Below are positions 3,866 to 46,154 of a DNA stretch of 64,000 bases, one piece after another. The stretch lies in contig JAUJYZ010000931.1 of the NCBI GenBank assembly GCA_033675265.1, positions 1 to 64,000 of the forward strand, written 5' to 3'. The position numbers and the translations under genes are program-made. Source of the DNA: Actinostola sp. cb2023 (taxonomy: Eukaryota > Cnidaria > Anthozoa > Actiniaria > Actinostolidae). A model generated the notes under the pieces. The model was not told where the DNA came from and searched no databases. It saw only the letters and a list, made by a program, of their open reading frames with translations. Within the stretch, counting starts at the first letter, position 1; every line of letters begins with the position of its first letter.

Positions 3866-3873
3866 CGTCTTCA

Positions 3874-17830: not shown

Positions 17831-18059
17831 CGAGCGAAGCGATGGCGTGACCTTTGGTTAATGTTTAACTTTTGTACATGTCGAGCTTGAAATATTCTAG
17901 TGTCGCTGTTGTGTCGCAGTAAATCCCAGTAGATATAAGTAATATAGTAAATAGCACACGGAACTTAACCTTGTGTAAAACTGAAACTATAATGCTTAAA
18001 TTGAGAAAAAGCAGGAAGGATGATTACACGCTGGGCTCGCGGGCGCACGAAATCCCATC

Positions 18060-19740
18060 TTGCCATATGGGAAATTAATGAAGTATATCAATGAATTAGA
18101 TATAGGTACCCTTCATGATGTTTCTATGTTTTGTAATGAAGAAGATGATAGAGTTGAGGGCAAATTTAGAGATATCGAACAACTGCTCTTAAAAATGGCC
18201 AAATTGTATCTCTATGTTGATTCAACATTTTACTCTACTGACAACCCTCTACTAAAATGGTTTAATAATGATAAAGGTTTATTCAAAGTAGCAATAGGGG
18301 CTGATGGAGCACCATTTGGGAAACATTCTGAAGCCACAGCCTGGTTAGTCAGCTTTTTAAATGTAGGTGGAAGAGTTGCCTCCCCTAATGATAACTTTTT
18401 GGTGTGCGGTGCTAATTGTAAAGAGGATCATGAAGTAATGGTACGGTATGCCAAGGACCTTGTCGTCAAAATCAATGCAATTGAATCAAAGACATATGCC
18501 ATTGATATAAATGTACCTTCTGCTTTAGAACTACTGCCATCAGACATGAAATGGCTAGCATTTTATTCAGGAGAACTCAACAATGCAGCCTACTATTTCT
18601 CATCTTTTGGAAATGTGAATGAAAGTGATAAGGGAACAGTAGGGGGTTCACTAGGAACAGACCCAGGAGATACCTGGAGGCCTTGATAATATGAAGCAAG
18701 ATTAGAAATAGCTGAAGAAGTAGATAATTTTAGAAACAACAACGCGAACAAAAGTACTTAATCTGATTAGGTCTCAAAACTCCTGTCAAGAAAATGTTCC
18801 CATTGTTGGTAGATTGATTGATAAGGCCTTAGCAGAACCCTTACATAATACAAATAATGCCTGGCAATATTTCAACAAAGACTTGTTTTTTCTAGTTAAT
18901 GATATTTCTCAAATACCAGACAACATTAGGTCTGTTTCAGATCTCAAAGATGACTCGCCCTTTCTTCTTTACCTCAATGCTATAAAGAAAGATGTCAAAT
19001 GTAATTTATTATATTCCAAAATTAAGACTTGGTTTGCAAATAGAAAAGCTAAGCAATTTGAATATAGATTTATTGGTAAAGAGAGCAAGTTATTTTGCCA
19101 TAATTTTATGTTCTTGATAGCTACAGTGGCATCAGTCCCAAATCTAAGTCCTTCCTGCCAACTGAAACTTAATGCACTGGCTCACCTTGGTCTCAACTTG
19201 AGAGATGCTGTTTCTCTTTTCAGTAGGCAATCTGCATCATCTGTTGATGTAGATCAGCTTAAACAAAACTGCACTGAGTTTTTCAACACAGCTAAAATGT
19301 TTTTGGGTGTTGTGACACCAACTGTTTGGACTATTGGATATGCCATACCATGTCATTCAAAAATAACCCTGAGTAAGTTTGGTTCAGGCCTTGGCATTAA
19401 TACCATGCAGGGACGTGAAGCTAAGCATGTCAAAATTGCTAAGTATGCTGAACATTCACTCCCGTCTAATAGATGGGAATTAGTTTTTAGACATGAATAT
19501 ATAACTACATTCTTTCTCAGGGAAAATGATCCCCATGCTTACATGTATAAGCACACTGATGCAAGCTACATTCCTGATAGGGTAAACACTGATGAGCACT
19601 GCTATTGTGGTTATCCCAAAAATAGAATTCAGTTAGAATGCAACTTTTGTGCTGATCCCCTAAGGAAAGCCATTCAAAGAAGTGTGCTATCTGGTGAATT
19701 AGATTTACGCATTAGACAATTGCTCAGCACCACAGAGTGA
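18060..19740 (+). pseudogene. Gene A, copy 1: candidate transposase, 5'-deleted and interrupted
   Basis: Two open blocks (18060-18686 and 18814-19740) align in order with gene A of copy 2. Shared motifs are GADGAPFGK, SD.KW.A...GELNNAA, SSFGNV, PLHNTNNAW, YRF.GKESKLF, MQGREAKH and RHEY. A C-terminal knuckle CYCGYPK...CNFC lies near 19598-19650. Stops at 18684-18689 and about 18757 break the middle, and the N-terminal coiled-coil region of copy 2 is missing. No intron interrupts the two positions where copy 2 has introns. The conserved Asp and Glu residues would suit an RNase H-like transposase, but I cannot tie it to a named superfamily. Confidence 0.75.
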
Positions 19741-19802
19741 AAATATTTTCAAATACTTTTCTTGTTAAATCTATGGCAGTGTATAACATGTAGATTATTT
19801 AG

Positions 19803-20335
19803 TATTAGTTTAGACAATATAAATAGGTAGATACCATGAACTGGGGTAACCAACCCCTGGGGAGTGGTGCTAGGTTTAGTGTTAGTTTAGATAGTATAAA
19901 TAGGTAGATACCATGAGCTGGGGTAACCAACCCCTGGGGAGTGGTGCTAGGTTTAGCTAGTGTTAGTTTAGATAGTATAAATAGGTAGATACCATGAACT
20001 GGGGTAACCAACCCCTGGGGAGTGGTGCTAGGTTTAGTGTTAGTTTAGATAGTATAAATAGGTAGATACCATGAGCTGGGGTAACCAACCCCTGGGGAGT
20101 GGTGCTAGGTTTAGCTAGTGTTAGTTTAGATAGTATAAATAGGTAGATACCATGAGCTGGGGTAACCAACCCCTGGTGAGTGGTGCTAGTTTTAGTGTTA
20201 GTTTAGATAGTATAAATAGGTAGATACCATGAACTGGGGTAACCAACCCCTGGGGAGTGGTGCTAGTTTTAGTGTTAGTTTAGATAGGTATAGGTATAAA
20301 TAGGTAGAACCAAGTTATAAGTATACAGTGGTGCT
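19803..20335. repeat. Minisatellite array, units of about 75-80 bp
   Basis: Six to seven tandem units carry TAGTATAAATAGGTAGATAC and the near-palindrome GGGGTAACCAACCCCTGGGG. It starts 60 bp after the gene A stop. Confidence 0.9.
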
Positions 20336-20337
20336 AG

Positions 20338-20724
20338 ATGTGAGACATGTACAATGTAGATAGCACGAGCTAGGGTAACCAACCCCTGGGGAGTGGTGCA
20401 AGATATAGTGAAAATTGAGACGAGTAAATACCACGAGCTAGGGTAACCAACCACTGGGGAGTGGCGGAAGATATAGTGATAGTTGAGACAAGTACATACC
20501 ACGAGCTAGGGTAGCCAACCCCTGGGGAGTGGCACAAGATATAGTGATAGTTGAGACGAGTAAATACCACGAGCTATGGTAACCAACCCCTGGGAAGTGG
20601 CGCAATATATAGTGATAGTTGAGACGAGTAAATACCACGAGCTAGGGTAACCAACCCCTGAGGAGTGGCACAAGATATAGTGATAGTTGAGACGAGTAAA
20701 TACCACGAGCTAGGGTAACCAACC
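20338..20724. repeat. Minisatellite array, 68-bp units, related to the first
   Basis: Units contain AGTGATAGTTGAGACGAGTA and the same GGTAACCAACCCCTGGGGAG core. The array is interrupted at 20725 by an LTR and resumes at about 21569. Confidence 0.9.
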
Positions 20725-21509
20725 TGTCACGGAATGTCATTAGTTAACTGAGTATTCACGCATAGCTACTTTATTATTTAGTACATTGTAATTAATCTAG
20801 TCTATTTAGGATACGTAATGGCATTTCTTGAGAATGTTTAGTCAATTAACCGTATTGTAATCTGTTTATGTAATTTATGTATAAATACGCCCTGTTTGAG
20901 GTTCGTCAACAGAACTGCGGAGAGTCGACAAAGTAGCAGTAGAAACAGCGACAGAAAGAGAAAACCTGAACACCACAACTCTTGTGGCTGGTTATACTAA
21001 GTGACCACGAAAGAGAAAACCTGAAAACCACAACTCCTGTGGCCGGTTGTAAAAGAGTGAAAAGCAAAATTGAGAAGAGAACTGAAGTCACTTGGAAGTC
21101 TTACAAGAAACCAAACGAGTCTACTCGTCTTCACTGAAGTCTTACAAGAAACCAAACGAGTCTACTCGTCTTCACTGAAGTCTTACAAGAAACCAAACGA
21201 GTCTACTCGTCTTCGCTGAAGTCTTAAAAGGAATCAAACAAGTCTACTTCAAAGTAAACCTCAAGCTCAGCAGTAAAACAAGTATTGTAACTGAACAAAA
21301 CAAAACATCTTAATTTATATTATATTACATTGTCATCGAGGAACACTAGTTTAGTTTATGTGTTTAGCTTTTAGAGTTTTGCATCATTTATGTACGATAG
21401 TTTGTTTGTTAGTAAAGTTATTATATTCTTATGTGTGTGGTCACTCAATTTCGCACAGGGAAGGCCTAGGGCTTGGGTTGCTGGGGTGAAGCGGTTCGAA
21501 TCCGTCACA
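20725..21509 (+). mobile_element. LTR of a gypsy-like retrotransposon, 785 bp
   Basis: It begins TGTCACGGAATG and ends ATCCGTCACA. The next bases, TTTTGTTGTCAGAAGTGGGA, resemble the primer-binding and leader region that follows gypsy LTRs in many invertebrates. Inside are two 50-bp repeats (20955-21060) and about four 42-bp repeats containing ACGAGTCTACTCGT (21085-21240). Only about 60 bp of internal sequence follow before the host array resumes, so the rest of the element is gone. Confidence 0.7.
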
Positions 21510-21568
21510 GATTTTGTTGTCAGAAGTGGGATTCACCTCAGAAGCCTTCGGGTCTGACTGTGGAGTGG

Positions 21569-21812
21569 TGCTTGGGGAGTGGTGCAAGAAATAGTGATAG
21601 TTGAGACGAGTAAATACCATGAGCTAGGGTAACCAACCCCTGGGGAGTGGCGCAAGATAGATATAGTGATAGTTGAGACAAGTAAATACCATGAGCTAGG
21701 GTAACCGACCCCTGGGGAGTGGTGCAAGATATATTGATAGTTGAGACGAGTAAATACCACGAGCTAGGGTAACCAACCCCTGGGGAGTGGCACAAGATGT
21801 AGTGACAACAAA
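21569..21812. repeat. Minisatellite array, continuation
   Basis: Three to four further 68-bp units of the array at 20338-20724, on the far side of the LTR. Confidence 0.85.
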
Positions 21813-22375
21813 GACATACAAGGTTAAGGCAAGTTCTACAGTACAAAGAAAACTTGAATAAAGCTGATACACAGTTATAAACTAATTTTGATATAGTTAT
21901 TTTACTATGTGTATAATGTTAATATACTTCTGTAGACCAATGTACAGTATACTATGAAAATATAAGTTTCTTACTTCATAATGTATAAAATATTCCTTGA
22001 AAATTTTTCAATAAATAAGGAAAGAATGTGGTCACTGTTTCTGTCTCCATTATTTTGATAATCTATTATTCAAATACATGCAGTACATACTACTGCTGCT
22101 GGAGGAATTTGAAAGAGAATAATTTATGTGACCAGGAGAGAGCTTAGCCTTCTCTTAGCAGCCGCCCATAGTTTCGTCACTGTGAAAATGGGATGCTGCT
22201 AAGGAGGCTAGAGAGAGCTAAGATTTGATTAGGGCTGTTATTGGGAAATTCAAATAAATGCAAATAAATGCAAATAAAGGGAAATAAGGCAATGAAACAG
22301 CACAATTTTAGGACAATAATTATTGATAGCTCCATGGTTACAGAAATGCTTGTCATATTTCATTTTCAAGGAACT
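21813..22375. other. Spacer of the two-gene transposon
   Basis: No gene is seen. A short CAAATAAATG triplication lies near 22252-22276. Confidence 0.35.
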
Positions 22376-22379
22376 GACT

Positions 22380-22483
22380 ATATAAAGGTATTTGATGTTT
22401 TGAAAGTAAAATCAACAGACAGCTTTAAATTGCTTTCATCTTCACTTCTGCAGAGAATATTAGCAGATTTGAAATCCATATGA
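22380..22483 (+). pseudogene. Short inverted partial copy of gene B
   Basis: The plus strand encodes VFDVLKVK, as does minus-strand gene B (near 23250-23280). The shared stretch includes TATTTGATGTTTTGAAAGT. The similarity is short, so a chance or captured fragment cannot be separated by eye. Copy 2 has a longer inverted gene B fragment in the same relative place. Confidence 0.4.
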
Positions 22484-22597
22484 AAAATTGCCAGCCCATT
22501 AAGCTATTCAAGAACAAGAACTATATGTGATTTAAAATACTCTAATGTATCAAAATGTGAAATACATATGGCATCGATCAGCTATGGTTTCAATATA

Positions 22598-22878
22598 TAC
22601 AGCTATTTCAAAAAACGTTGATACTGAATAATATTGTATTCCAAGACCGAAATGCATTTTGGGACTCGTGTATTATTGTCTAAAGTAATATAAATAATAA
22701 TAATTTACTATATTTTTAGTGCATTCCATCAGAAACAATATACCAGCTCCATATTGCGAACAAATCGCTGTATATTTACTTTTTATTTCAAAATAACTAG
22801 GCCCACAATGCCCTTTGGTCTCGGAATGCACTATTCAGTATGCAGTATTCAGTTTTCAACGTTTTTTGAAATAGCTGT
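22598..22878. mobile_element. MITE with CAGCTATTTCAAAAAA termini
   Basis: TIRs CAGCTATTTCAAAAAACGTT and its inverse are flanked by TA. The terminus is shared with the element at 59953-60190. Confidence 0.8.
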
Positions 22879-22967
22879 ATATAAAACATTGCTGATTTGT
22901 TAATTCAAAAACAAGGTAATTGCCTTTTTTAAGAAAGATTTCAAATTATTGCCAATTACACCGCAAT

Positions 22968-23591
22968 TCACACATGCTGAGGGATACCGTATGCATTCCA
23001 CACACCGTAGAAAAATGTGATGGTGATATTTTCCTTGGTGAACGAGTATTTCAGTTCAAAGGGACGATCTTGCCTGCAATTTAGTCCAGCACAGTCCTTG
23101 TTCTTGAATAGCTTGGTAAATGGCTGCAGTGATTCTTCAGTGGATTCCAAATCTGCATGTTCCATCAAGTGTAGAACGTCCTCTGCAGAAGTGAAGATAA
23201 CTTTGCAAGTCCTTTTCGTCTCTGTCACCATGTTGCTCAGACCTTTCAACTTAACTTTCAAAACATCAAATACCTCAAAGGGTAAGTTCCTTGTAAATGA
23301 AATCTTGAACGGATTTCTGCCATTTGGCTGCTGTCTCATTCTCGTCATTGCCGTGCTGTTCCACTGCCTCATTTCCCTCTTCGACATTCTGAACGGTTGT
23401 GCCAAAAAATACTTGGTTCTTTTGTCATTGTCCAGTGTATGTTTTTTTATAACAGCCATAGTCAGTTCTAGAAGCTCTCCTCTGATCTCGGAAGCCTTTT
23501 TCTTTTCCCAAAAAGGGCTATCTCTTTCAAAATCCTCCAGTGATTCATAGACTTTTTCATACGCACGAGTCGCCATTTTGGATTTTGACAA
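22968..23591 (-). CDS. Gene B, copy 1: small protein of the two-gene transposon, 207 aa
   Basis: An uninterrupted frame starts at MSKSKMATRAYEK (an internal ATG gives MATRAYEK) about 85 bp inside the right terminus and runs towards gene A. The protein is basic and Lys-rich in its first half. The most conserved part against copy 2 is the last 30 residues: LKYSFTKENITITFFYG then WNAYGIPQH. This compares with FKYSFKMEVLTISFHYG then WNSFGVPQH. No known domain is recognised. Its preservation next to a broken gene A, and its presence in both copies, suggest an accessory transposition protein or an inherited passenger. The frame could be used by other copies in trans. Confidence 0.75.
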   Translation of the reverse strand: MSKSKMATRAYEKVYESLEDFERDSPFWEKKKASEIRGELLELTMAVIKKHTLDNDKRTKYFLAQPFRMSKREMRQWNSTAMTRMRQQPNGRNPFKISFTRNLPFEVFDVLKVKLKGLSNMVTETKRTCKVIFTSAEDVLHLMEHADLESTEESLQPFTKLFKNKDCAGLNCRQDRPFELKYSFTKENITITFFYGVWNAYGIPQHV

Positions 23592-23679
23592 GCAAATCTA
23601 TGTGAATAACCGCTGAGTTATTACGGGCTCATACTTCTTAAAACCGCCGATTTTGATACGCTCCCAGCCCAGCGTGTTA

Positions 23680-24390
23680 GCCTTCCGAATTATTATTGTC
23701 GAATGAAGAAATGGCGAGATATCTCTTCGGTCTGTCGTGAGTACAGTTTGCGTTCGGGACAACAGCCATTCTTATTGACATCGTCCTATAACTTGAAATA
23801 GAACTTGAAAATCTTTCATTCAACCAACGTTGGACAGGTTAGACACAGATTGAAAGCCATGGCAAGTCCTATTTGCAAGTTTGGTAAAACTGATGATTTG
23901 GCGAAATGTTCTGAAAACCCTGGGTTAAAACCATCCATGAGTAGGTCATGGCCATCGCCGATGAGTCATATGCTATCGCTTCTTTCTCGAATTGGTTCCA
24001 AAGGAAAATGCATTCGTTTCTTTCTCTGATTGGTTCAGAAGGCGAAGACATTCCATTGTTCTGATTTACTAAGCTGTGATTCGTTCAAAATGTTACTCAC
24101 ATCTTTTCCGGAAAACCTGCACGATGGTTATAGTGTCTACTAGCGCATGCGCAGTAGACACAAAAAGTACAAGGATAAATGCCCAAAACTGCCATAGTGA
24201 AAGATATATTCTAATTAAGTACACATCGAAAGTTTGACTTTGCCGACAAAGGTGAGTAAGGCCTGTCAGTTCGTTTAGTTGTCAAATGGTTTAGTTGTCG
24301 TGTTAGTTTACGGAGCAGGATAAAATATAAAATTTGCAAATTAAACCGAATCATGCAAGTGTATTTAGTAGTAATCTCTCCTATTTTGTT
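23680..24390. other. No recognisable gene; probable intron of the recombinase relic
   Basis: Direct repeats of about 45 bp with TTCTTTCTC.AATTGGTTC lie at 23975-24045. The stretch ends in TTTTGTTTTAG, a plausible acceptor for the exon at 24396. Confidence 0.4.
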
Positions 24391-24582
24391 TTAGAGTGAT
24401 TCACCTCGAATCCCGTTGGACGAAACACCTTGGCAGCAAACTGTAAAGAAACTGTGTAAGGAAGCTGGGATAGAGGGCCATTAATCACAGCTTAAGAGCA
24501 ACCACCGTCACACGAGGACTAATGAAGGCAATCCCTGATAAATTTGTCATGGAAAGGACGGGGCACAGAGACATTAGGAAGG

Positions 24583-24782
24583 AATGAGGGTTTATCATGT
24601 AATTTCAAATTTCATAGGACAAAAATATTTTGATCATAGCTGGAAAGAGCTCGTTGAAATTAGTAAAAATGTGAAGTTTGAAAAAAATCCCTTCACAAAT
24701 TGCGAAGATATGAATTTTATGATAATCATTTTTTTGTCCTATGTCTCCTATAAGTTTTGAAATTACGTGATAAACCCTCATT
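24583..24782. mobile_element. MITE, 200 bp
   Basis: TIRs AATGAGGGTTTATCA...GTAATTTCAAA and the inverse, with CATAGGACA inside each arm. It abuts the next foldback element. Confidence 0.75.
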
Positions 24783-25418
24783 ACCACCGATTGCATTACT
24801 ACGCGCCCGACATAGAAAAGTTCCTGGTGCGAGTTTGGCGATTCTCTTCCGTCAATCAAACACATTTGGTAAGACTACCGATTACAACCAAGGAGCTTCA
24901 CTCAATAAACATTCGGTTGTTTGAGAGATTAAACTGGTAGGACTATAAATGTTTCGTTCCTATTTACTTTTGTCGATCTGATAACTAGAGGTTAGAGGGC
25001 CACAAGTTTATCAGTCTGAGACTGTTTAGTGTCACCCTCATAAAATAAAGTCTTTTGATTTGATTTGATTTGATTTGAGGATATATTAGTTAGAATAAAA
25101 TGCTTGCTCATTTGGTGTCGAACGCAGCTTTGAAGTTCTGGGAGACTAATTAGGACTAACGGTTGTCAATTTCAATCAAATTTATCAGTGCAAATGTTCC
25201 TCAAAATGAAATGGAAATACTTACAAAATTATTTCTCTTTGTCTTTTGGAGTTATAATAATTGCAAAGGCACTCTCTCAATCGTACGAATGTTATTGAGC
25301 CAAACTCCTTGGTTGTAATTGGTAGTCTCGCCAAATGTGTTTGATTGACGGAAGAGAATCGCCAAACTCGCACCAGGAACTTTTCTCTGTCGGGCGCGTA
25401 GTAATGAAATCGGTGGTA
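24783..25418. mobile_element. Foldback element with about 140-bp arms
   Basis: Left arm 24783-24915 and right arm 25275-25418 are inverted copies with about 90 percent identity (ACTACGCGCCCGACA, GTTCCTGGTGCGAGTTTGG). The minus-strand frame at 25221-25424 is only the arm read through. Confidence 0.8.
24990..25078 (+). repeat. (TTTGA)n tail of a non-LTR retroposon
   Basis: AAATAAAGTCTTTTGA followed by four TTTGA units, typical of the 3' end of a LINE or SINE insertion inside the foldback element. Confidence 0.6.
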
Positions 25419-25419
25419 A

Positions 25420-25680
25420 TGCATTAATTATTAATTATTATTGTAAATATAGTTTTATATATATTTTTTTTCTTCTTGTAACTATCAGGATTTTTATACC
25501 AATTTATATTTCATTTTTATACAATTTATTAATAGGTTTTATATATGTTATAGTGTTTTTATCCTTATGTTATAGTATTTATTTATTTAATTTTTTATTT
25601 AATTTTAAACACAGCTTCAGTGTAAATAAGTGCCCAACTTCATGAATTCTGTGTTAAATAAAGTTATTATTATAACTATT
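25420..25680. other. AT-rich repeat sequence
   Basis: Very AT-rich and ends AAATAAAGTTATTATTATAAC. It is probably another retroposon 3' end. Confidence 0.35.
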
Positions 25681-25920
25681 AAGGTCACTCCAGAAATATC
25701 AGCGACCTGATGTTGCAACTAAACTTGAAATCTCTAGGGCCTGTGATTGTGGCAATTTAAGCTTTGCTACTGAAGAAGCAGAGCAAGAGACCAAAAAGGC
25801 AAGCATCAAAAGAGCTCTAACTACAGAGGACAAGGATGGCAGGGATGGAGTTCTGAAGAAATTGTGTTATGCTGCAAGTAGAAATCCAGAAGAAAAAAAG
25901 TCAGCAGTATATTTTCATAA

Positions 25921-26423
25921 TTGCACATTTGTTATTTCCAAAGACTTTTTAAAGTTATTTCAATCAAAATATTGGTTGAAAAAATGTCAATATGTAGTAG
26001 AGACGGAGATTTGATATTCAGCAGGGAACGAATTAAACGAATTGCTCAGTATAGATTCAAGTGCAATATACATTATGATTTAATTACCAGTGCAATATTT
26101 AGATATTGCACAGGGCAATATTTGTATAATGCAATTGAATCTCTAATGAGTCATTAATTTCATTCATTAGCCCCACTCTTCCCTGACGAATAAAATCCCT
26201 CCCCGGTCTTTAAGACAGTTGAGTATTAATTAAGAGAAATAAAGGTCCTTGAATAACATAGAAAACCGACTCCATTGTGTAATAAGCAGATATATTGACT
26301 GACTACACAACAACTATGCCATCACCAACTAACATCAACAGCATGATCATTAATTCAGCTGAGATAGTGAAAAAGCCATACTTGGCCATATCTTTAGTGA
26401 AGGCAGGCATGGAGGACTTCTGG
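25921..26423. other. No recognisable gene
   Basis: The frame of the recombinase relic closes. An ORF at 26295-26546 is not recognised and overlaps a repeat shared with 46.8-47.0 kb. Confidence 0.35.
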
Positions 26424-26700
26424 ACAGCTAATTTTACGTCACGCGTTACCAGTAAATCGGAACATTCAAATGAAGTTTTGAAGTCTAGACTCGAGTCTCG
26501 AACATTCAGACAGAAAAATCAAATCTCCACGAATATATACAGTTGAACCCCGTATCTCGACCTTGGTTATCTCGAACACAAACCCATTTCCCTTGGGTCG
26601 TTTTCTCAGTCAATTGCTATAGGTTATCTCTAACCCCCGCTATCTCGAACAATTTACCGATTCCCATCACGTCGGGCTAGAAAGCACTAAAATTCTAAGG
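26424..26700. mobile_element. Repeat shared with 46762-47033; includes pogo-like end
   Basis: CAGTTGAACCCCG after TA (26540 on), then TATCTCGAAC words and CACGTCGGGCTAGAAAGCAC (about 26669-26690). The same components occur inverted at 46.76-47.03 kb, as does the outside sequence ACGTCACGCG. TA plus CAGTTGAACC is typical of pogo/Tigger-type MITEs. The second end is missing here. Confidence 0.6.
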
Positions 26701-26900
26701 GGATGTGTCATGGAGTGTCCGGAAATTTTATTTTTCCGGATACTTAAGGAATACGGGATGGATTTTTTAAGTGTCAGGATTCTTCGAGTGTCATGGAGTA
26801 TCAAGTACCGAATACCTAGCGTCTTGAAGTATCATGGAGTGTCAAAGGCCTGACACCATAAACATCACGTGTCAGGGCGTATACTGGGGCCACGCATAGT
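26701..26900. repeat. Repeat rich in GTGTCATGGAGTGTC words
   Basis: The word or near copies occur at about 26706, 26791 and 26830, and inverted at about 39556, next to fragments of the same MITE family. Class unknown. Confidence 0.4.
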
Positions 26901-34509: not shown

Positions 34510-37500
34510 ATGCCTTTTACTGCTGGATCCTTTTTTAACACATCAGCGTCTTCTTCATCAAGCGATAGTGCTGCTGAACCAACAAGACATCGTGGAACTT
34601 CCAACACTCGGGACGCTAATGCTTCACAGCCGAGCAGTTCAGCTGGTCATCGACAACGTGAGAGACAAATGGTTGTCTCGTCAGCTGAGCTCGGACGGCT
34701 GTTTGACGGCATCAAAGAAGTAAGCAATGCCGTCAAACAGCAAGGAGAGTCCATCAACAAAATGGCGGAGGAATTGTCAAAATGCCGCCAAGACACGGCC
34801 GAACTAAAGGAGGAGATCGCTTCATTGAAAGAGGATGAAGAACAGTTCATGGAGGCAGGACATTCTGGTCCTTTACCAAAAGGAGTGAAGGTAACTAATC
34901 CAGTAATCAGTCCCCAACAGAAATATTGTTTTATACTGGTACCTTTAAGACTTATACTATGCTTAGAATTGTCTGAAAAAATAATTCACAAAGTAAAGTG
35001 GCATTGATTTTTGTTTAAAAGTGTTAAGGGCGTTCCGAACAACAGTTCCAGACTTGGAATATGGGTCGATGGCTTAAAACAAGAAAGATTGAGGCAGATT
35101 GTAGTGAAATCGTGAACATGATCCGTAATCATAGGGCATGGCTTTTGTTTCAGGAAGATGTACGTAACCTGCATAACCAACAAGATGACGACCACCAGTA
35201 TCGCGGCAGAGAGAAGTAAGATTAATATGAACAATGCCACAAAGTAATGTTGTTTTATTTGTTTCGTGTAGTAAAGAAAAGAGTGCTTCGTGTAGTAAAA
35301 AGAGTACTTGTGCTCTCACAACGACGGAAGCAAACTAACTCGCCACGTGCCTCAAAGAGACGCGCGGTACGATCTCCTCGACCTAAGGGGGGAGGGGAGA
35401 GTATTGGGTGTTTTTTTTTCCCAGACACCGCACTGGAACTTACCTTTTTTGCTCAAATATTTTTTGCTCAAATCTCTTAATTACTGTTTGTTTTTACTAA
35501 TTTATTTTTTTCCTATGTTTTCTTTTATAGAATTGATACCCCACACAACTGTGCTGTCCGTCATTTTCTTGCTCAAACATTGTTAAAGGAACCTAACTAT
35601 GGGTATGACAAGGCTACTATTAAACGTAAGTCATTCATGTGCTTCATATATTTAAGAAATATAACATGTGTGTGTCTGTCTCTGTACATAAACATCTAGA
35701 GTGTATATAAAAGTGCATCTAATCCGTAGTATGATATTTTGAAAATCATTTATAAATGAATTGCAAAGTGACATGATTCTGAGGATGTGGACTTTGCATT
35801 TTATGAGGGTTTGAAATATAAAAATGCAAATGAGATTATGTCAAACCAGGCAAAAAGAAAATTAATGCTAATGTTTAATTTGTATATCATTATTATATAT
35901 CATTTAGTTGATATTTTGGTCATATCACTCATCAAAAGAAAAGACAAATCCTGGTTAGATGTCGCCACATTTGCATTTTAAAATGTCAAGTCTGAATTGA
36001 GAAGTCCATATCAAGAACAATTATACCATGTTTAGAAGTGATTTTTAAAATACATGTATATATCAAATACTGGGTTAGGTGTAGTTTAATAATATCACAG
36101 GGCAGCAATACTTTCAACTACATTTGCTTTAATGAAATAGTGTGCCTGTGCTTTGATTTAAAGGTGCGGTAATACGGGCAACAAAATCGTGCAACTTGTC
36201 GCGCAACATTTTCAGATTGTTGCGTTGCAAGTTGCAGAGCAATGTTTCTCGTATTACCATCGTTCGCGCAACTTGTCGCGCAACAAATTAAATTGTCGGT
36301 CATTTGTTGCAGGTTGCAAAACTTTGTTGCATGAAGTAGAAAGAGCTTCTACTTTGCGCAACAAAGTTTTGCAACCTGCAACACGAAAATGTGTTGCGCG
36401 ACAAGTTGCGCGAACGGTGGTAATACGAGAAACATTGCTCTGCAACTTGCAACGCAACAATGTTGCGCGACAAGTTGCACGAATTTGTTGCCCGTATTAC
36501 CGCACCTTAAGGTGCAGTAATTCGGGCAACAAAATCGTGCAACTTGTCGCGCAACATTTTCAGATTGTTGCGTTGCAAGTTGCAAAGCAATGTTTCTCGT
36601 ATTACCATCGTTCGTGCAACTTGTCGCGCAACAAATTAAATTTTCGGTCATTTGTTGCAGGTTGCAAAACTTTGTTGCATGAAGTAGAAAGAGCTTCTAC
36701 TTTGCGCAACAAATTTTTGCAACCTGCAACACGAAAATGTGTTGCGCGACAAGTTGCGCGAACGGTGGTAATACGAGAAACATTGCTCTGCAACTTGCAA
36801 CGCAACAATGTTGTGCTTCAAGTTGCACGATTTTGTTGCCCGTATTACCGCACCTTAAGGTGCAGTAATTCGGGCAACAAAATCGTGCAACTTGTCGCGC
36901 AACATTTTCAGATTGTTGCGTTGCAAGTTGCAAAGCAATATTTCTCGTATTACCATCGTTCGTGCAACTTGTCGCGCAACAAATTAAATTTTCGGTCATT
37001 TGTTGCAGGTTGCAAAACTTTGTTGCATGAAGTAGAAAGAGCTTCTACTTTGCGCAACAAATTTTTGCAACCTGCAACACGAAAATGTGTTGCGCGACAA
37101 GTTGCGCGAACGGTGGTAATACGAGAAACATTGCTCTGCAACTTGCAACGCAACAATGTTGTGCTTCAAGTTGCACGATTTTGTTGCCCGTATTAAAAAT
37201 TACCGCACCTTTAAGAGAGAATATCATATTAATACATATAATATATTTTCAGGTGCTGCAACAAGATACTTCGAAACTAAAAGGCAGCACTATTTGGACA
37301 GTTTGCCTGAGAGGAAAGAGATGTCGGAAAAGAAGCAGAAAGACAAAGCTCTGACATCAAGAAGGAGAAGGGTAAGTAAACAAACAACAACTCCAACACT
37401 AATACATATGCAAAATCATCAATAGATTAACTCAATCAAGATGGGCATTTACATATTACACTGCAACACTTTTAAAGGCTCAGACACTCAATGCGACTTT

Positions 37501-38603
37501 TCTTGCAACGTTGCTCGTAACAGTTGCAGAAGTAGGATATAGTTCTACTTTTGCAACCGTTGCGCACAACGATCGTGTAACGCCCCATAAAAACCTTGTT
37601 GCGCGCAACGCTGCAAGAAAAGTTGCATCGTTTGTCTGGGCCTTTAAAGGTGTACCACCTTTCATGTATTTGTATATACCAATATCATAAGTCCGTACCT
37701 TTAAAATAGACAAACTAAAACCTTTACAGTACGAATTGCTTAGGTCATCAGAAAGAACGCTGGGTTGTTATAGACAATGTATTCAAGAAATAATTACGGA
37801 TCAATAATTGTACATGTTTATCAACTGAGTGGTAATGAGCCTCGTTTTCATGTTTTTCACATTATAAAGCACTGATAACTTCGCAGGAATTTAATTTTTA
37901 TTCTTAAAACTCACAGACATAGTTTCTTTGAACATTAATTTGTCAATCTGTTATGCTACTTTACCCGATCACATTTTGACTTTGTGCTTGAAGTAACGGT
38001 ATTCAAATACATTATAAGAGTGTCATGCTGATATTCACTTGCCACCCTATTTATTTTCTTTATGCTAGCCTATTTTGTTTTTCTATTTATTTATATATAT
38101 ATATATATATATTTTATTAACAGCTCTATGTTCAAAGAATGAAGGTTGCTTCTGAAGAGGACAAAGAGAGCCTGAATGGAATCACTCATAATTTTATGAG
38201 TGATGAAGAGGATGGGGAGGAGAGAGGTGTGTGGGTGGTGAGAAGTCCATCTTGGAGAAGTCAAAACCTCAACACAATCCTGGAAAGACTCCAAGAAAAG
38301 GTGGCTTCTCAGGATGTGTCTTCACGCCACCCAAAATATCGAAGAGTGAGGGACCGTCCCTCATCAAGGTCTGCTCCATCAAATGCCCCATCTTGGGCAT
38401 TGAATGAACAAGGTGTCGATGAAACAGAAGGTGGTACAAGCGATGTATCTGACCATGACCAGCCTGATGCTATAGCATGCAGTACACCATGCAGCACACC
38501 ATTGAACAATGCTGCTTCGCCTGTTGAGAGGGAAGAAGATGATGAAAATGTCCAAATACCAAGACCGCGAAAAAAAGCCAAAAAGAAGAAAAGAAGACTT
38601 TAA
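34510..38603 (+). CDS. Five-exon gene, C14orf93-like uncharacterised family, 378 aa
   Basis: Exons 34510-34890, 35154-35215, 35531-35625, 37253-37371 and 38124-38603 join with matching phases (0, 2, 1, 0) and total 1137 nt with no internal stop. Every junction is GT-AG. The N-terminus is Ser-rich (MPFTAGSFFNTSASSSSSD). A coiled coil follows (LGRLFDGIKEVSNAVKQQGE and on to residue about 115). The middle holds NCAVRHFLAQTLLKEPNYGY and AATRYFETKRQHYLDSLPER. The C-terminal part has FMSDEEDG, SPSWRSQNLNTILERLQ and HPKYRRV, and ends in a Lys/Arg tail (PRKKAKKKKRRL) that could be a nuclear signal. The later blocks resemble a widespread invertebrate family loosely like vertebrate C14orf93, of unknown function. 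The ATG at 34510 was chosen over the in-frame one at 34450. AATAAA lies at 39036. The exon 1-2 junction is the least certain. Confidence 0.65.
36162..37210. repeat. Three tandem palindromic MITEs separated by single TTAA sites
   Basis: Units are 36162-36506, 36511-36854 and 36859-37210. TTAA sits at 36158, 36507, 36855 and 37211, so neighbours share one site. Each unit is an almost complete palindrome starting (A)GGTGCGGTAATACGGGCAAC or the variant GGTGCAGTAATTCGGGC. Units 2 and 3 are nearly identical; unit 1 differs at several places. The 335-codon plus frame across it is a by-product of repeats of GTTGC and CAACA words. It lies in intron 3 of the gene above. Confidence 0.95.
37476..37643. 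mobile_element. Palindromic TTAA-flanked MITE, 168 bp
   Basis: AGGCTCAGACA and inverted AGGCCCAGACA ends lie between TTAA sites, with GCAACGTTGC and GTTGCGCGCAAC words inside. It resembles, but is distinct from, the triple unit upstream. Confidence 0.8.
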
Positions 38604-38633
38604 TTAAGTAGAACTGCCAAGTAGATCTAGATC

Positions 38634-38757
38634 AGGTTTGGTTCTGTTCTCTGATAAAACACTAGGCTGAAAATTAGTTTGAAATGTTATATAAGGTACA
38701 TGTAGATGTTCTACAGCTTTAGCAGTGTTTTATCAGCGTACACAACACAGCCAAACC
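38634..38757. repeat. Inverted repeat in the 3' untranslated region
   Basis: CAGGTTTGGTTCTGTT with CTGATAAAACACT at the left, and their inverse at 38725-38757. It is a short MITE or a transcript hairpin. Confidence 0.6.
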
Positions 38758-39259
38758 TGGTCCATTTGCTTTATATAATACATTTTCGAAGAATATTTCT
38801 GTTTTGAGCTGAGCGCAAGCGCGCGTCGTACGTCTTTTCTATATTCTGAAAAAATATAGGTAAAGTAATCAGAGCGCAATGTCGTGAACATCTATAAATT
38901 ATTATTTAAACTACCATGCATTCCAAAGTTTCAAAGAACAGTATTTATTTGAATTGTATGCATTGAACACTTATTTTCCAACGTTTGAAATGTTCTAGTT
39001 AGTTAATGCCATGTGCAATTGCATTATGATAGAGAAATAAATGATTTAAAAGTATATGTTGTAGGTTTAATTTATCACATGACTACCCAGAAAAGAAGGA
39101 TGAAGTGTGAATAATGTCAAAGAAAAAGGTGGAAATTATGGTTACAATATATAGAGTATCCTGAAAAATCCGCTTTTATTGACTACCGAAAATTTGAAAT
39201 ATCCGAGGAAATCGCGAGAAAGCATTAGCGGATATTTAACGCATGAAAGAATATACGGA
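38758..39259. other. 3' flank; no gene
   Basis: AT-rich, with a probable polyadenylation signal at 39036. Sequence rich in ATATCCG and GCGGATAT words begins at about 39160 and leads into the tandem repeat. Confidence 0.4.
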
Positions 39260-39474
39260 TAGTGCATTTGACAAATCAAGGAAAATCCTTAGAAATACAA
39301 ATCGTGTATTTGACAAATCAAGGAAAATCCTTAGAAATACGAATCGTGTATTTGACAAATCAAGGAAAATCCTTAGAAATACGAATCGTGTATTTGACAA
39401 ATCAAGGAAAATCCTTAGAAATACGAATCGTGTATTTGACAAATCAAGGAAAATCCTTAGAAATACGAATCGTG
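39260..39474. repeat. 42-bp tandem repeat, five copies
   Basis: The unit GTGTATTTGACAAATCAAGG...CCTTAGAAATACGAATC is nearly identical across copies, and the first copies carry small changes. Because 42 is a multiple of 3, both strands stay open for 108 codons. I do not regard either as a gene. Confidence 0.9.
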
Positions 39475-39685
39475 CACTAGAAGTATACGGGAAAATTACG
39501 GATCCCGGAAATTCCCTGACAGGGAAAGTAGTCCGAATACGGAGAAATACGGGCCTTGACACTCCATGACACTTTAAGTGGCTGGTTCCTGGGTACTACC
39601 GGAATATTACGTATTCCTAAAAAATACGGGTGCGAATCCGTGAAAACCGAGGCCCGTATACTTGACTTTTCACGCAGTGATTGTT
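39475..39685. other. Unclassified repeat sequence
   Basis: Contains ATACGGG and CCCGTAT words and an inverted GTGTCATGGAGTGTC at about 39556, as in 26.7 kb. Confidence 0.35.
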
Positions 39686-40136
39686 TCATTATATTCAGCA
39701 CTAATATACACGTCGGGCTGGCAGGGCTTAAAATTGTTTCATTATATTCAGCTAATTGGGAAACTGGGTCGAGCGCGGACGGAGGTGACGTTGTTCACCT
39801 AAACAAAAGCCAGCAAAACACAATGAGTTTAACCGTCTCTACCCCCCTGGGGAGACATTTGTCAATTAAAATGGCGGCGGAACTGGAATCAACGTGAAGC
39901 AAGCTTTCTTTCGATATATAACACGAAATACAAAATGAATTCTTTGCCACAGGACACAATGGTTGTTAGGTAAGTCATAAACCAAAGCAGTAGTACAAGT
40001 AAAGCTTTCTTTGTCGCTTTCTCTGGACAAATACGAGAGGATTTAACGAAAACGAAAACGACAGTTTTGTGGGCCAACTTCTAAGCTTTCCATTGATATG
40101 TAAATGTGGTTATTTACGTGCGAAAACTTTCATTTT

Positions 40137-43100
40137 ATGCCTAGCGAACCGGAGCAGTCGGAGCAATACACTCCGACCCCACCAATTCGTACAGGCCGTT
40201 TTAACGTCGCCCTATATGCTAAAAAGAAAAAGTTGGCATTTGATAAACTAATGGAGGAGAAGCTATCGGCGGACTACCAGATTATATCTCTCAAGAACAA
40301 GCTGGAATATCGAAAACGAAAGGTAAGATTCCTTTTTAAAGTTTTCCATGTATTATGAAATAGGTTGTTTTTACTTTGAATTCATAAATATAGGCTATTG
40401 TCTCTTATTTGGTTTTGTTTTGACTATCACTTTATAAAGTACTAATATTGCTAGCTACAAAGAGCAAGCGCACAGTCACACTCACAGTCTATATAACATG
40501 TAGAATATACCTGAGTATTAATATATAAGCTTATAGTTTTCACATTTAATCCCCATTCAAGTGAACTTTTTAGTTTTAAATTAGAAACATAAACAAATTA
40601 CATGTAAGCTTATAAGTTATATAAAAATAATTGAATGAAATAAGCTTACTAAAACAAACTACAAACTAAATACTTGATAAAAACCTATAAAATATACCTA
40701 ATTAGTATATTATATTATGCTACTAATAATTAACAAATCGCAAGCAGGTTTCCATTGTCTGTACTCTTATTGACAATGGATTTGACAAAACTCAAGTGGA
40801 AAGTTTTGAACATTTTGTGACGTCAAATCCATTGTCAATAATAGTACAGACAATGGAAAACCGCTTGCGATTTCTTTTTTACAATAACAAAGTCAAAAAA
40901 CATCCAAAAGCAAGGAAAAAGTTTGAAGGAAAAACCGTTTGAAGCGCACGCTGGATCCGTGCACAAGCGATTCGTCATTCTATGTGTCTGTCCTCTTATT
41001 GACAATGACTGAAAGCCAATCAGATTGCGAGATTTCGCTCTGTTATTGTAAAAACTGTATTGTATTGTATTGTATGAATATATTTGCCATTCAGATTGGA
41101 GGTATATCAGATTCATTATATGTACAGTATGATAATTTTGTTCATCTTTTATAGGCAGATGATCTTAAAGCAGAGCTCTCATCAATTAGCAATGCCCCAA
41201 AACAGTCTAGGTTGCCAAATGTAGAGAGTTCTAGCTCAAAAGAAAACACTGACAACCTGAACATGTCAAAAGTCCAAAATTACCGTAGACGAAAAGCAAC
41301 AATGGAAGCACTCAAGCCTATTCACTGCTCTCCCACATCAAGAAATAATGAACCAGTACTAAATGGAATGTTTTCCACTATTGTCAATGAATGTTCTTTA
41401 AAGAATATACAGTCTTTGATTGCCAAATCAGCCACATGTTGTAAAAAGATCATTCCAAAGATGGTTAAGAACAAGGTTAAAGAATACGAAAGCAGCAAAG
41501 AAAATATGATTCGAAGTGTCACTTTGTTTTACAAGGGTGGCATTTTGACAAAGAGAAAGTACAAAGAGATGAGAAAGAGGAACGAATCATTCATGTCAGA
41601 AGTCTCAATACCCAAACCAGTGTCGTATGACCGACTGATAGCTTTTATCAATAGCATTGACATGGGAGAAGTGGTTGATTTACAGGTCATGTAGGAATTA
41701 CAATTATTGTTATTGTGTTGTGGATTAATGCTCTAATGACATATTTAGAGAACTCAGAGCAATGTTATCCTGGTAATATATTTAATGATACAACTGAAGG
41801 GTATCGCAGCTGTTTCTCAGTTATATGCCTCATTAAAGTTAATATTCACAACTTTTGATAATCTCAAACATTAATCACCCCTCCAAATGTGCATTTAATC
41901 TGTATATTCATTTTATTAATTTGTTTTATTAATGTGTAGGAATTTGCTGCTAGTGTAAACAAGCCTTTTGTGTTTGGGGTGTATCGGCCATTGGAAAATT
42001 TTCTTCTTAGATTGGCGAAGATGTATCTACAACTGAATAAATACAACAAGGTTCTACACTGGTTTCAAGAGCAAGAGGGACATTTCTTAGTGGCACTTGG
42101 TGCTGACGGCGCCCCTTTCGGAAAGGATGAAACGGCAACGTCATTTGTGGTGAGCTTCCTAAATGTCCTCGATGGAATCCAGAGTTGCGATAATAATTTC
42201 TTATTGATGGGAGCAAACTGCGACGAGACACATGAACTCATGTTTGCATATTCTGAACATGTTTTCGATGAAATGGAAAAGATTGAAGATAAAACCTATG
42301 AAGTAGAAGGTACCCAAGTTACATTCAAATGCAAATTAATACCAAGTGACCAAAAATGGATTGCTGCAATGGCAGGTGAATTGAACAATGCAGCTACCTA
42401 CCCTTCTAGCTTTGGCAATGTTTGTATGGGAAATATGTCAGTTATTGGTGGGTCTCTTGGAAATGAAAAAAATTCAACTTGGAAACCTTGGAACTTTGAA
42501 CAAAGACTTAAAGATACAAAAGCTGTCAACTTGTTCAAACAAAAGAACAAAATTCCAGCTGACACAAAAGACAAGGGAGTCAGGAAAAAGATAACAACAT
42601 TTATTGCATCAATAAAGTCTAGACAAGAAAGAGAGCCCTACATTGGGAAGTTTGTAGACCTTGGCAAACCGGAGCCATTGCACAACACGAATAATGCTTG
42701 GCAAGCATGGAATGTACATGTATTAAACACAGCTGTGAAACTAATAAACCTAAGTGACATCAACAGAGCCAATGGGAACATTGATAATCTTTCACAGGAC
42801 ACACCCCTTTATAAATATGTTCTGTGCTTGGAAAACACATTTAAGGCTGGCAGATTAGTGAAAAATCTGAGAAAGTGGTTGAGAGAGAGAAAAAACAACG
42901 AAATGTTTTCGTATAGATTCACTGGAAAAGAGTCGAAATTGTTCTCCTGGTATTTTATGCACCTATGCAGAGCTTTGCAGAATTCTTCAGGAATAGACAT
43001 GAACAATTTATTGCATGTTAGTGCTATAGCCTATTCTGGTCTTTGTTTACGCAATAGTGTTGCACTTTACTCAAGGGTGCACATCAATGCAAGTGACTTA

Positions 43101-44312
43101 ATCTCTCTCAAGGAACAACACAGTGAACAATATTTCAACTGTCAGAGTTTGCTGCTGTCATCGTGTAAACCAACAACCTGGACAATTGGAAAGGCTGTTC
43201 CTTACCATACATCCCAACTGTATAGTGATTTGGGGTTTGGGCTCGGTCTTAACAGCATGCAAGGTATCTGCCATATTTTATTATTAAACAATATAACCGT
43301 AAAATAGTACTTATTACTAAATAGTGCTATTTCTATTGTTTTCTATTGTTTTGTAATATTATTTATTTATTAAGTTAATGTTTTATATTTACAATACAGC
43401 CAATTGCAAAAAATATGTAAATCAAGTATATCAGTATAATTATATCCTTGTTATATACCAACTGTCAAAGTTCATTTTTCTCATGCTCTGATTGGGCGAG
43501 CGGGTATCACGTGAACAAGTTTTCATGTTTCCCCGGCAACAGCTCTCAGCGGGTAACAATATGTTGTGGACCGGCAATAACAAAACCAGAAGTTGACTGA
43601 GCTTTGTAACCTTGATTGGCGTTGGTAAACGCGCTTGAAAAGCGGGAAACCCATATTTTTGTTGTTCTTTGACAGTTGGTATATAACAAAACACTTATTG
43701 ACTGGGACCTCGGGGAAAGCATTTCCCTCGGTCCCAGTCAATAAGTCTTAAATATGAGATCTTTGGGTCTGTGTTGGCTTTGGTAGATAACACAGACCTC
43801 AGTCTTTATAATTTACAATACCATGCTCAACATCATCCAATAATTACTTATTGATGTTGTTATTATTAGGTAGGGAGGCCAAGCATGCTAGACTTTCCTG
43901 TTATGCCAAGAACACTACCAGTGGAAAGCGATTAAGGTGGTGGCAGATTTTCAGGCACGAATTTATGGAGATCATATGGCTGAGAGAGACAAATCCTGAT
44001 CAGATGAGCTACAGAAGGGGAGCTGTTGCTGGGACACAAAACCCACCTGTCATTGAGAAAGAGCAGTATATCCCCTCATATTGCAATAGTGACCATTTTT
44101 GTAACTGTGGGCTGCCAAAAGTTAATACATGTGATGTTTGCAGTTCAGAAATGTTCACTCTAGTTAAGTCAAGTTGTATGAAAGGCAAACTAGAGGAGGA
44201 GCTCACAGTTTTGGTACCAAGTATCAAAACCAAAAAATCAGTGCAGACAGTTTTCAAAAAACATGATGGATCTACGCCTGAAAACCGAAAAAAAATGCCA
44301 TTAAATCGTTGA
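40137..44312 (+). CDS. Gene A, copy 2: candidate transposase, 827 aa, four exons
   Basis: Exons 40137-40322, 41155-41685, 41940-43263 and 43870-44312 join in phase (0, 0, 1) for 2484 nt without a stop. Residues 1-110 are Lys/Glu-rich and coiled-coil-like (FDKLMEEKLSADYQIISLKN). A basic middle follows. The best conserved region begins near residue 290: GADGAPFGK (Asp about 295), GANCDETHE (Cys about 333, His about 337), SDQKW and GELNNAA (Asp about 376, Glu about 386), then PLHNTNNAW, YRFTGKESKLF and MQGREAKH. A Cys knuckle (CNCGLPK...CDVC) lies near the end. The acidic residues and Cys/His motif would suit an RNase H-like transposase of the CACTA-Mirage-Chapaev type; this is inference. The last 25 residues match gene B (see the fragment at 44240). 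It faces gene B. Confidence 0.75.
40738..40868. repeat. Inverted repeat in intron 1 of gene A
   Basis: CGCAAGCAGGTTTCCATTGT with GTACTCTTATTGACAATGGA and their inverse give arms of about 50 bp. The word TGTCCTCTTATTGACAATG recurs near 40990. Confidence 0.8.
43447..43692. mobile_element. MITE in intron 3 of gene A
   Basis: GTTATATACCAACTGTCAAAG and its exact inverse lie at the two ends (about 43450-43470 and 43668-43688). Confidence 0.8.
43693..43746. repeat. 54-nt near-perfect hairpin
   Basis: ACTTATTGACTGGGACC...GGTCCCAGTCAATAAGT has a 27-bp stem with one or two mismatches and almost no loop. It sits directly next to the MITE. Confidence 0.8.
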
Positions 44313-44400
44313 CATTTTTCCTATGACATTACGAATACTAGTCAAGACGGCCATGAAGCCATACATTGAAGACTTGTACTCCTACGACATCTTCACCTTG
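44240..44400 (+). pseudogene. Fragment of gene B fused to the 3' end of gene A
   Basis: This plus-strand stretch is an inverted copy of 45768-45915 in gene B. Gene A reads VFKKHDGSTPENRKK where gene B reads VFKKHDGSTPKNRKK, in the same sense and frame. An extra A in the following A run shifts gene A to a stop at 44310, while similarity continues at DNA level to about 44400. The original C-terminus of gene A was probably near LVPSIKTKKS. Confidence 0.8.
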
Positions 44401-44795
44401 AATAAGGATAGTAAGGATGACAAGAATGGCTGTCCCCTGACATTAATGTGTTGCACACCTGAAGTTGTGTAAAGCTTGATGCGAGTGCAATCAATAGCTT
44501 TTTCACACCTGAGAGGTGCATTAATATTGTTGTCTTATACATAGAAATCAATTATCTTTTGTATTTAGCACTAAATAGTGATATTTATAGCTTTAACAGT
44601 GAACTTATCTCTTATTGGATCATTTCTTATTGGTTGAAAAAAACCTTTATGCGTAGCTTTCTGTCACCAATGTTTGTAACTGACTTTCGTCTACATGTAA
44701 TTTTACAAAGCAACTGGTGTTTTTGATTTTCCCTGGCACACCTATAATAGGGTGTTTCCATAATTTGTATTATTCTATTGCTTATTATTATTATA
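44401..44795. other. Spacer between gene A and the pogo-like MITE
   Basis: No gene is seen. AGCACTAAATAGTGATA near 44565 matches words at 9.4 and 43.3 kb. Confidence 0.4.
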
Positions 44796-45276
44796 CAGTT
44801 GAACCTCTATTAGGTGGCCACAATCTATTAAGCGGCCAATTATCAAAGTCTTGAAATAATTATCAGCATGGCTTATGCTAATTTCTGTCAAACCTCTATT
44901 AAGTGGCCACTTGTCAATTCCCCAAGGGGAATGAATCAGTCAATTCCCCCCGGGCATTAGTATTTTTTTAATATCACTAATTCTTCACGGTCAGGTAACT
45001 AGCTACAAATGTAGGTGTTAAAATGTAAGAAAGGTTGGTTTATAAACATTTCCATCTACACAAATTATAATACCACAAGGCACAAAGCAAATGTCATATC
45101 CCCCAGGGTAGAATAATGCCCCACTCCCAGGATCCAATAGCATAAAAATGCCCCACGTTGTCTCGGGGGATGGGCACTGCTGGAATTGACTGATGCATAA
45201 CCGCTTAACCGCATAACCGAGGTTAATACAGATGAATATGAATCTAATAGATTATATATTAATAGAGGTTCAACTG
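44796..45276. mobile_element. pogo/Tigger-type MITE, 481 bp
   Basis: CAGTTGAACCTCTATTA and its exact inverse are flanked by TA (44794-44795, 45277-45278). A further CTATTAAGTGGCCA word repeats inside the left end. Confidence 0.85.
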
Positions 45277-45411
45277 TAATTGTGCTTCAAGGGAATAAAT
45301 ATTACCTCCCCTACATGTCAGAACAATGCAGCTGAGATGAACATGGTGATGAAGAGTATGTTTCACAGGTAAGAAAATAGGTACATGTACATCTTGCAGG
45401 ATAATATAAGG

Positions 45412-46062
45412 TTAGTGTTGGGGAACACCAAACGAGTTCCAGTATCCATAGTGAAAAGATATTGTAAGAACTTCCATTTTGAAGCTGTACTTGAATGTGA
45501 AAGGCTTATCTTCAGAAAATAGCACTTCTGCAACGCTTTCGTCCTCAAATTCTTTTACAAATAACATGCTTTTATCAAGGACAATGCCATTATCGTTTAC
45601 TGTGTTCATAAGGTAGACGGCTTTTCTCTTGTCTGTAAACAAAACTGTGACACAGGAATTGGTAGAAGTAGAGGAATGTCCAAATCCATTTTGTTCAATC
45701 TGTTTCCATATACAATCAAATACTTCGTTTTGAACCTCCTGCTTGAAACTACAGAAATAAGGTGAAGAAGTAGTAGGAGTACGTCTAAGTCTTCGATTTA
45801 TCGCTTCGTGGATCTTGACTAGTATACGTGATGCCATAGGAAAAATGTCAACGATTTGATGACATTTTTTTCGGTTTTTAGGCGTAGATCCATCATGTTT
45901 TTTGAAAACTGTTTCCATAAGCGTTTCTAGCTCTTTGTAAACGTTATCAATGAATAATTCATCACATTCACTTTGAGTTTTTATGGAAAGCTTCCAGCCT
46001 AACATGCTTGATCGCACTCTCCGCTTCAGTTCTTTCGACGCCATCTTTGAAAGTGCCCGCAA
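45412..46062 (-). CDS. Gene B, copy 2: small protein of the two-gene transposon, 216 aa
   Basis: An open frame starts at MRALSKMASKELKRR, with an alternative MASKELK start, about 90 bp inside the right terminus. It ends with FKYSFKMEVLTISFHYG, WNSFGVPQH. It shares with copy 1 the size, orientation, start position and C-terminal block, but is quite diverged elsewhere, which implies the two copies belong to different subfamilies. The N-terminal half is basic. The block VFKKHDGSTPKNRKK is also found as a duplicated fragment at the end of gene A. No known domain is recognised. Confidence 0.75.
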   Translation of the reverse strand: MRALSKMASKELKRRVRSSMLGWKLSIKTQSECDELFIDNVYKELETLMETVFKKHDGSTPKNRKKCHQIVDIFPMASRILVKIHEAINRRLRRTPTTSSPYFCSFKQEVQNEVFDCIWKQIEQNGFGHSSTSTNSCVTVLFTDKRKAVYLMNTVNDNGIVLDKSMLFVKEFEDESVAEVLFSEDKPFTFKYSFKMEVLTISFHYGYWNSFGVPQH

Positions 46063-46154
46063 TTTTATTCAGCGGTATAATTGAACAAAATATATACCCA
46101 GCATGCCACATGCGCCGATAATGAAACATTTTTAAGCCCTGCCAGCCCAACGTG

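Follow-up and report, generated by a model that had tools for sequence, protein, structure and literature searches.

The window analysed here is a 64,000-nucleotide stretch of the actiniarian Actinostola sp. cb2023 (assembly GCA_033675265.1, contig JAUJYZ010000931.1, positions 1 to 64,000). It contains two copies of a DNA transposon family that carries two genes, a large gene A and a small gene B, convergent to A in both copies (Table 1). A first-pass annotation of the window had described such a family, with CACG...CGTG ends, 3-bp target duplications (TTA and ATA) and a tail-to-tail gene pair; we recovered the same boundaries, both duplications and the same arrangement, and found further copies in the organism's own genome. 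Read on the forward strand, copy 1 runs TTA/CACGCTGGGCT...AGCCCAGCGTG/TTA and copy 2 runs ATA/CACGTCGGGCTGGCAGGG.../ATA. The perfect end match in copy 1 is 11 bp, while the ends of copy 2 pair over 37 bp at 94.6%. The 11-base string CACGYYGGGCT, with at most one mismatch, occurs six times in the window compared with 0.95 expected, and four of these six are the ends of the two copies.

As the annotation had also noted, the copies are diverged: gene A is 47% and 36% identical in two parts (tblastn, E 2e-48 and 2e-36) and gene B 31% (E 5e-22). The GADGAPFGK and GELNNAA core and the C-terminal Cys knuckle attributed to gene A were located as the D1 and D2 blocks and a CxC...CxxC motif, and the WN..G.PQH block of gene B reads YGxWNxFGxPQH in the consensus. 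In copy 1, an in-frame stop (18684-18686) and a shift of frame near 18742 damage gene A, whose N-terminal part has no counterpart in that copy; a relative elsewhere in the genome (L017), 98-99% like copy 1, has an open gene A. In copy 2, gene A has four exons with GT/AG edges and is open for 838 codons before the stop. Across the family, protein A frames span about 690-810 residues in intact-looking copies, and protein B spans about 190-280 residues and is mostly basic (isoelectric point 7.7-9.8, 16 proteins).

Copy 2 sits within one arm of a palindromic element whose arms are about 91% alike. The other arm runs unbroken through the target, ...CAGCACTAATATAACTTCTAC..., and the filled site reads ...CACTAATATA/element/ATAACTTC...; comparison of the filled site with this paralogous empty site (46717-46737) shows that exactly ATA was duplicated. 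Because the palindrome has CACGTCGGGCT at its end and an inner block, TGTTTCATTATATTCAGC, in common with the left end of copy 2, it appears from its sequence to be a small non-autonomous relative of the same family. The DNA around it resembles what we take to be a Tigger-like end. A solitary end elsewhere in the window (26668-26692) is preceded by sequence resembling that beyond 46777 and followed by unrelated sequence.

Table 1. Features of the two transposon copies and related elements in the window
Feature	Position	Strand	Details
Copy 1, whole element	18027..23676	+	5650 bp; gene A broken and lacking its N-terminal part, gene B open; basis: ends and TTA duplication
Copy 1, left target duplication	18024..18026		TTA
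Copy 1, right target duplication	23677..23679		TTA
Copy 1, left terminal inverted repeat	18027..18037	+	CACGCTGGGCT
Copy 1, right terminal inverted repeat	23666..23676	-	CACGCTGGGCT
Copy 1, gene A part 1	18060..18686	+	GADGAPFGK (D1) and PSDMKW/GELNNAA (D2) blocks; tblastn, family alignment
Copy 1, gene A part 2	18742..19740	+	other frame; EPLH, GREAKH (E), C-terminal CxC...CxxC
Copy 1, gene B	22971..23576	-	about 201 residues
Copy 1, inverted copies of two gene B pieces	22278..22522 (source 23093-23378)	+	72% over 139 alignment columns, 78% over 65
Copy 2, whole element	39709..46154	+	6446 bp; basis: ends and ATA duplication
Copy 2, left target duplication	39706..39708		ATA
Copy 2, right target duplication	46155..46157		ATA
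Copy 2, left terminal inverted repeat	39709..39745	+	37 bp; identity to the right repeat 94.6%
Copy 2, right terminal inverted repeat	46118..46154	-	37 bp
Copy 2, gene A, probable first coding exon	40104..40322	+	GT donor, joined frame open; start codon inferred
Copy 2, gene A exon 2	41155..41685	+	N-terminal helical part
Copy 2, gene A exon 3	41940..43263	+	D1 and D2 blocks, PLH motif
Copy 2, gene A exon 4	43870..44312	+	GREAKH (E), C-terminal CxC...CxxC, gene-B-derived tail
Copy 2, gene B	45415..46044	-	about 210 residues
Copy 2, inverted gene B piece	44247..44399 (source 45759-45912)	+	157 alignment columns, 87.3%
Palindromic element hosting copy 2	46155..46777		ends in CACGTCGGGCT; uninterrupted target site at 46717-46737 in its right arm
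Solitary end	26668..26692	+	CACGTCGGGCTAGAAAGCACTAAAA; 25 bp in common with the palindrome end

We searched the organism's own genome (424 Mb, 1594 contigs) for further copies. The protein A core gave at least 97 matches (95 of 413 candidates scored), or at least 92 loci after joining pieces, and two gene B protein queries gave at least 97 and at least 125 matches, or at least 156 loci. Many gene A loci have long open frames, and some copies carry stops. Twenty loci of 9-10 kb, chosen from the 97 listed matches by score and open frame and so not a random sample, were studied closely together with the two window copies. Both ends match CAC[G/A]NNGGG in 17 of these 22 loci; the other five (L013, L018, L021, L024, L025) gave no usable end pair. 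One pair, L019, was set aside because its flanks are the same as those of L020, and 14 of the remaining 16 pairs have identical 3-bp flanks (AAA, ACA, TAT, TTT, ATG, ATG, TTT, ATT, AAA, GTT, AAA, CTA, TTA and ATA). Among 24 ends, with near-duplicates dropped, positions 1-3 (CAC) and 7-9 (GGG) are invariant, with weaker conservation at 22-35, where an A-rich stretch is followed by a TCAT block. L019 and L020 lie on one contig and face opposite ways, which could reflect either a duplication of this region in inverted form or a fault of the assembly.

The two genes largely occur together. A convergent gene B was present in 20 of the 22 loci and in all 17 with both ends. Among the 92 listed gene A loci, a convergent B lies downstream within 6 kb in 60, within 10 kb in 67 and within 20 kb in 70, while B is found solely in another arrangement in none within 10 kb and in three within 20 kb. 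Where synonymous change is unsaturated, the ratio of nonsynonymous to synonymous change (dN/dS) is 0.09-0.13 for gene A (3 pairs) and 0.09-0.26 for gene B (5 pairs). Pairwise distances of A and B are correlated across 15 elements (r = 0.85; 0 of 10,000 permutations as high). Both genes thus show signs of purifying selection and, from their sequences, of co-divergence.

The predicted structure of protein A best matches RAG1, the nuclease that cleaves antibody genes (about 475 aligned residues, about 10% identity on the RAG1 structure). The model points to a RAG1/Transib-fold DDE transposase with a conserved D-D-E formed by D275, D356 and E657. For motif counts we used an alignment of 36 gene A proteins, which omits L012, L013, L019, L037, L045, L046, L048 and window copy 1, along with L001-L008, as these last duplicate the window or longer loci. 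A PLH motif with H466 is present in all 36. E546 (GKES) was dropped as the catalytic E since 10 of the 36 have D there. Folding the copy 2 core as a single sequence gave a predicted local distance difference test score (pLDDT) of 32 and was useless. Sequence matches in the PDB (receptor kinase, phosphatase, histidine kinase, survivin, haemagglutinin, others) and weak Pfam matches (GH127, homeodomain, WSC, PriX, others; one member each) were taken as chance. For a viral origin, no relative was confirmed in viral contigs and no viral structure matched at E <= 0.001, and no prokaryotic relative was confirmed. Gene B as a piece of gene A was also rejected, with a profile comparison probability of only 0.4%.

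What the data show are the ends with their duplications, the empty site, the pairing of the two genes, signs of selection, the predicted fold and the conserved D-D-E. Very probably, this is a cut-and-paste family with a RAG1/Transib-fold DDE transposase, A, and a convergent second gene, B, on which the element depends. Acting probably as a dimer, protein A would bind both ends through CAC[G/A]YYGGG and the inner A/T-rich and TCAT block and would cut at the CAC edge, perhaps with hairpin chemistry as in RAG1/Transib. Joining of the ends to the target with a 3-bp stagger would then give the 3-bp duplications. Protein B has no match that we recognise and shows no sign, in its sequence, of being RAG2, and would most likely act with A at the ends or target in a RAG2-like role. 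The dimer, the hairpin chemistry and the whole of B's role are the parts that we infer.

Several observations weigh against this reading. The idea that A and B always travel together held for the copies with both ends, but the stretches read at L013 and L021 lack B (the nearest listed convergent B lies 7.7 and 14 kb off), and for 22 of the 92 listed gene A loci no convergent B is listed within 20 kb. Conversely, no A is listed within 6 kb of 96 of the 156 listed B loci. When four of these 96 were read over 3.8 kb, one proved to contain a stretch of gene A at 94% identity, another a piece of 23 residues, and the other two no gene A, so B pieces without A exist, as do A loci without a listed B. 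The end pairs of L012 and L023 have no matching duplication. The dN/dS values, among the 14 closest pairs listed per gene, are rough, with dS mostly above 1 and imprecise, and the gene B pair of copy 1 and L017 gives 2.1, on very few changes. The C(2)C motif is found in none of the 36 A proteins, five of which end before the E. A hhalign comparison of A with one RAG1 sequence (594-1006) gave a probability of 0.05%, a PDB profile search with protein A returned nothing relevant, and 17 gene A proteins gave no Pfam transposase match at E 0.1. Finally, a predicted fold is not activity. The two B loci where no gene A was found (L051, C270:109000-112800; L052, C1103:68900-72700) may be remnants, interrupted copies or free-standing B.

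We compared the family with known groups. The CMCT clade (CACTA/EnSpm, Plavaka, ESTA, Lanisha) has CA..TG ends and 2-5 bp duplications, and its members reportedly have in common C(2)C and H(3-4)H motifs between the second D and the E (PMC12730594); the ends and duplication size are alike, whereas C(2)C is absent from protein A. Chapaev carries both C(2)C and H(4)H, and the Chapaev3 elements studied duplicate TWA (PMC4079192). Chapaev3 had been named as the closest relative in the first-pass annotation, whose interpretation overall is partly supported: CAC...GTG ends, 3-4 bp duplications and the LH motif are shared with Chapaev/Chapaev3 of the CACTA-Mirage-Chapaev (CMC) group, but only one of the 14 duplications is TWA (13 are not), C(2)C is absent throughout, H(4)H is found in 15 of 36, and a second gene is present. 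RAG-like (RAGL) transposons have convergent RAG1L and RAG2L genes, 5-bp duplications and CAC ends, and invertebrate RAG1L carries a C-terminal Cys motif, CCGHC (PMC7204232). RAGL/ProtoRAG and vertebrate RAG1-RAG2 are like the present family in their convergent genes, CAC ends, predicted RAG1 core fold and C-terminal Cys motif, and unlike it in that here the duplications are 3-bp rather than 5-bp, ZnC2 cysteines are missing and no sequence match is detectable. RAG2L has a six-bladed kelch and a PHD, while none of 17 gene B proteins matched kelch or PHD in Pfam at E 0.1. Transib has 5-bp duplications (PMC7204232) and the C(2)C / H(3-4)H site (PMC12730594). The present family differs from it in its 3-bp duplications and absent C(2)C. 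Transib is also known as a single-gene element; a second gene is present here. PIF/Harbinger elements have 3-bp duplications, two genes and a Pfam Harbinger-type DDE domain; the duplication length and gene number are alike, and the missing Pfam transposase match, the predicted RAG1-type fold and the mostly non-TWA duplications are not. The family would work like a RAG1/Transib/CMC transposon, but by the tests run it does not count as a standard member of those families.

Other explanations fit part of these data. A Chapaev or CMC-group family in the Repbase sense that lost its C(2)C zinc site, with B as a family-specific extra gene, is a distinct possibility that falls somewhat short of probable. 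It would account for the CAC ends, the 3-bp duplications, the RAG1/Transib-like fold, the invariant PLH histidine and the H(4)H near the RAG1 position (at E-26/-21, compared with E-25/-20 in RAG1; the second His is present in 29 of 33 proteins with a residue there), and because Chapaev and CACTA structures are absent among the matches listed, the fold result cannot separate them from RAG1. It leaves the complete absence of C(2)C, duplications other than TWA and a gene A with no RING match in Pfam to be explained. A diverged RAGL transposon with B as a worn-down RAG2L is very unlikely: the convergent layout and CAC ends are as in RAGL elements (PMC7204232) and RAG1 is the best fold match, but the short B without kelch or PHD match and the 3-bp duplications do not fit, and the roughly 10% identity of A on the RAG1 structure compares with an average of about 37% among RAG1L cores (PMC9435367).

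We consider it unlikely that gene B rides along as a passenger, or is what remains of another element, and is dispensable for movement. The A loci without listed B, the B loci with no A nearby and the lack of a known domain would suit such a gene, while its presence in every copy with both ends, always convergent, its signs of purifying selection and its co-divergence with A argue that it belongs to the element. It is scarcely credible that gene A is a RAG1-like gene domesticated by the host and multiplied, flanks included, by another process; many long open frames would be expected of it, but ends with 3-bp duplications at different sites, copies with stops and the empty site oppose it, and the empty site and varied target sites largely refute it.

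In addition to the two genes, many elements contain inverted pieces of their own genes. We compared 16 elements with themselves (3 with approximate edges; L010 alone was entered for the near-identical L010, L011, L012, L013 and L014). Pieces of gene B or A were repeated within 11 of them, always inverted and never direct; L009, L015, L018, L026 and L027 showed no inverted piece in this comparison. The pieces measure 187 bp at 97.9% identity in L025, 83 bp at 97.6% in L020, 48 bp at 97.9% in L016 (directly past the gene A stop), 42 bp at 97.6% in L010 (within gene A) and 122 bp at 91.8% in L022; copy 1 and L017 have pieces of 139-146 and 65 at 68-78%, the L023 and L024 pieces derive from gene A, and the L028 piece is weak (E 0.007). 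Their positions within the elements vary, and in L010 and copy 2 the piece is now part of the gene A coding end. L010, L016 and the second piece of copy 1 and L017 come from about nt 420-505 of B, while those of copy 2, L020 and L022 overlap at about nt 111-286. When lineages with strong matches are counted, seven of nine derive their pieces from B, which makes up about 22% of coding length (P about 6e-4, with rough lengths and independence assumed). In a small control of 21 other open frames of at least 200 residues, some overlapping, we found no inverted repeats and five direct repeats in two frames. The high identity of the pieces to their own B suggests, at the level of sequence, several separate events; a possible alternative is a set of old, shared pieces whose similarity conversion has maintained. 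Template-switching repair could yield such copies without any function, and a bolder reading is that hairpin RNA from them limits B.

We tentatively propose, as possible though rather doubtful, that the family is a lineage outside the described CMC, Transib and RAGL groups, which gained its own convergent partner independently of RAG2 and whose copies pick up inverted B pieces time and again as a built-in self-limiting switch. If so, nature would have paired a RAG1-type recombinase with a dedicated partner a second time, and a read-through transcript over the inverted B pieces would fold into double-stranded RNA and lower B. No RAG1-type transposon with a non-RAG2 partner gene is described in the titles and abstract openings of the open-licence literature matching the wording used. 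Work on the origin of V(D)J recombination has long asked why a RAG1-type transposase should have become reliant on another protein and by what route. A large family with many long open frames, whose RAG1-fold enzyme has an apparently unrelated convergent gene as its companion, would offer an independent comparison case for the partner-binding surface, the partner's job and the recurrence of the convergent layout. The family further suggests that a RAG1 fold can do without the zinc-site cysteines by which the group has been defined.

The window had no match in Rfam and holds several other repeats. Copy 1 has, in the space between its two genes, a satellite array with units of about 68-80 bp (19798-20724 and 21573-21805), interrupted by other sequence at about 20725-21572. 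A long palindromic tandem repeat array spans 36158-37214, with copies 348 bp apart and 98% alike, and a further tandem array with units near 80-120 bp lies at 3866-5065.

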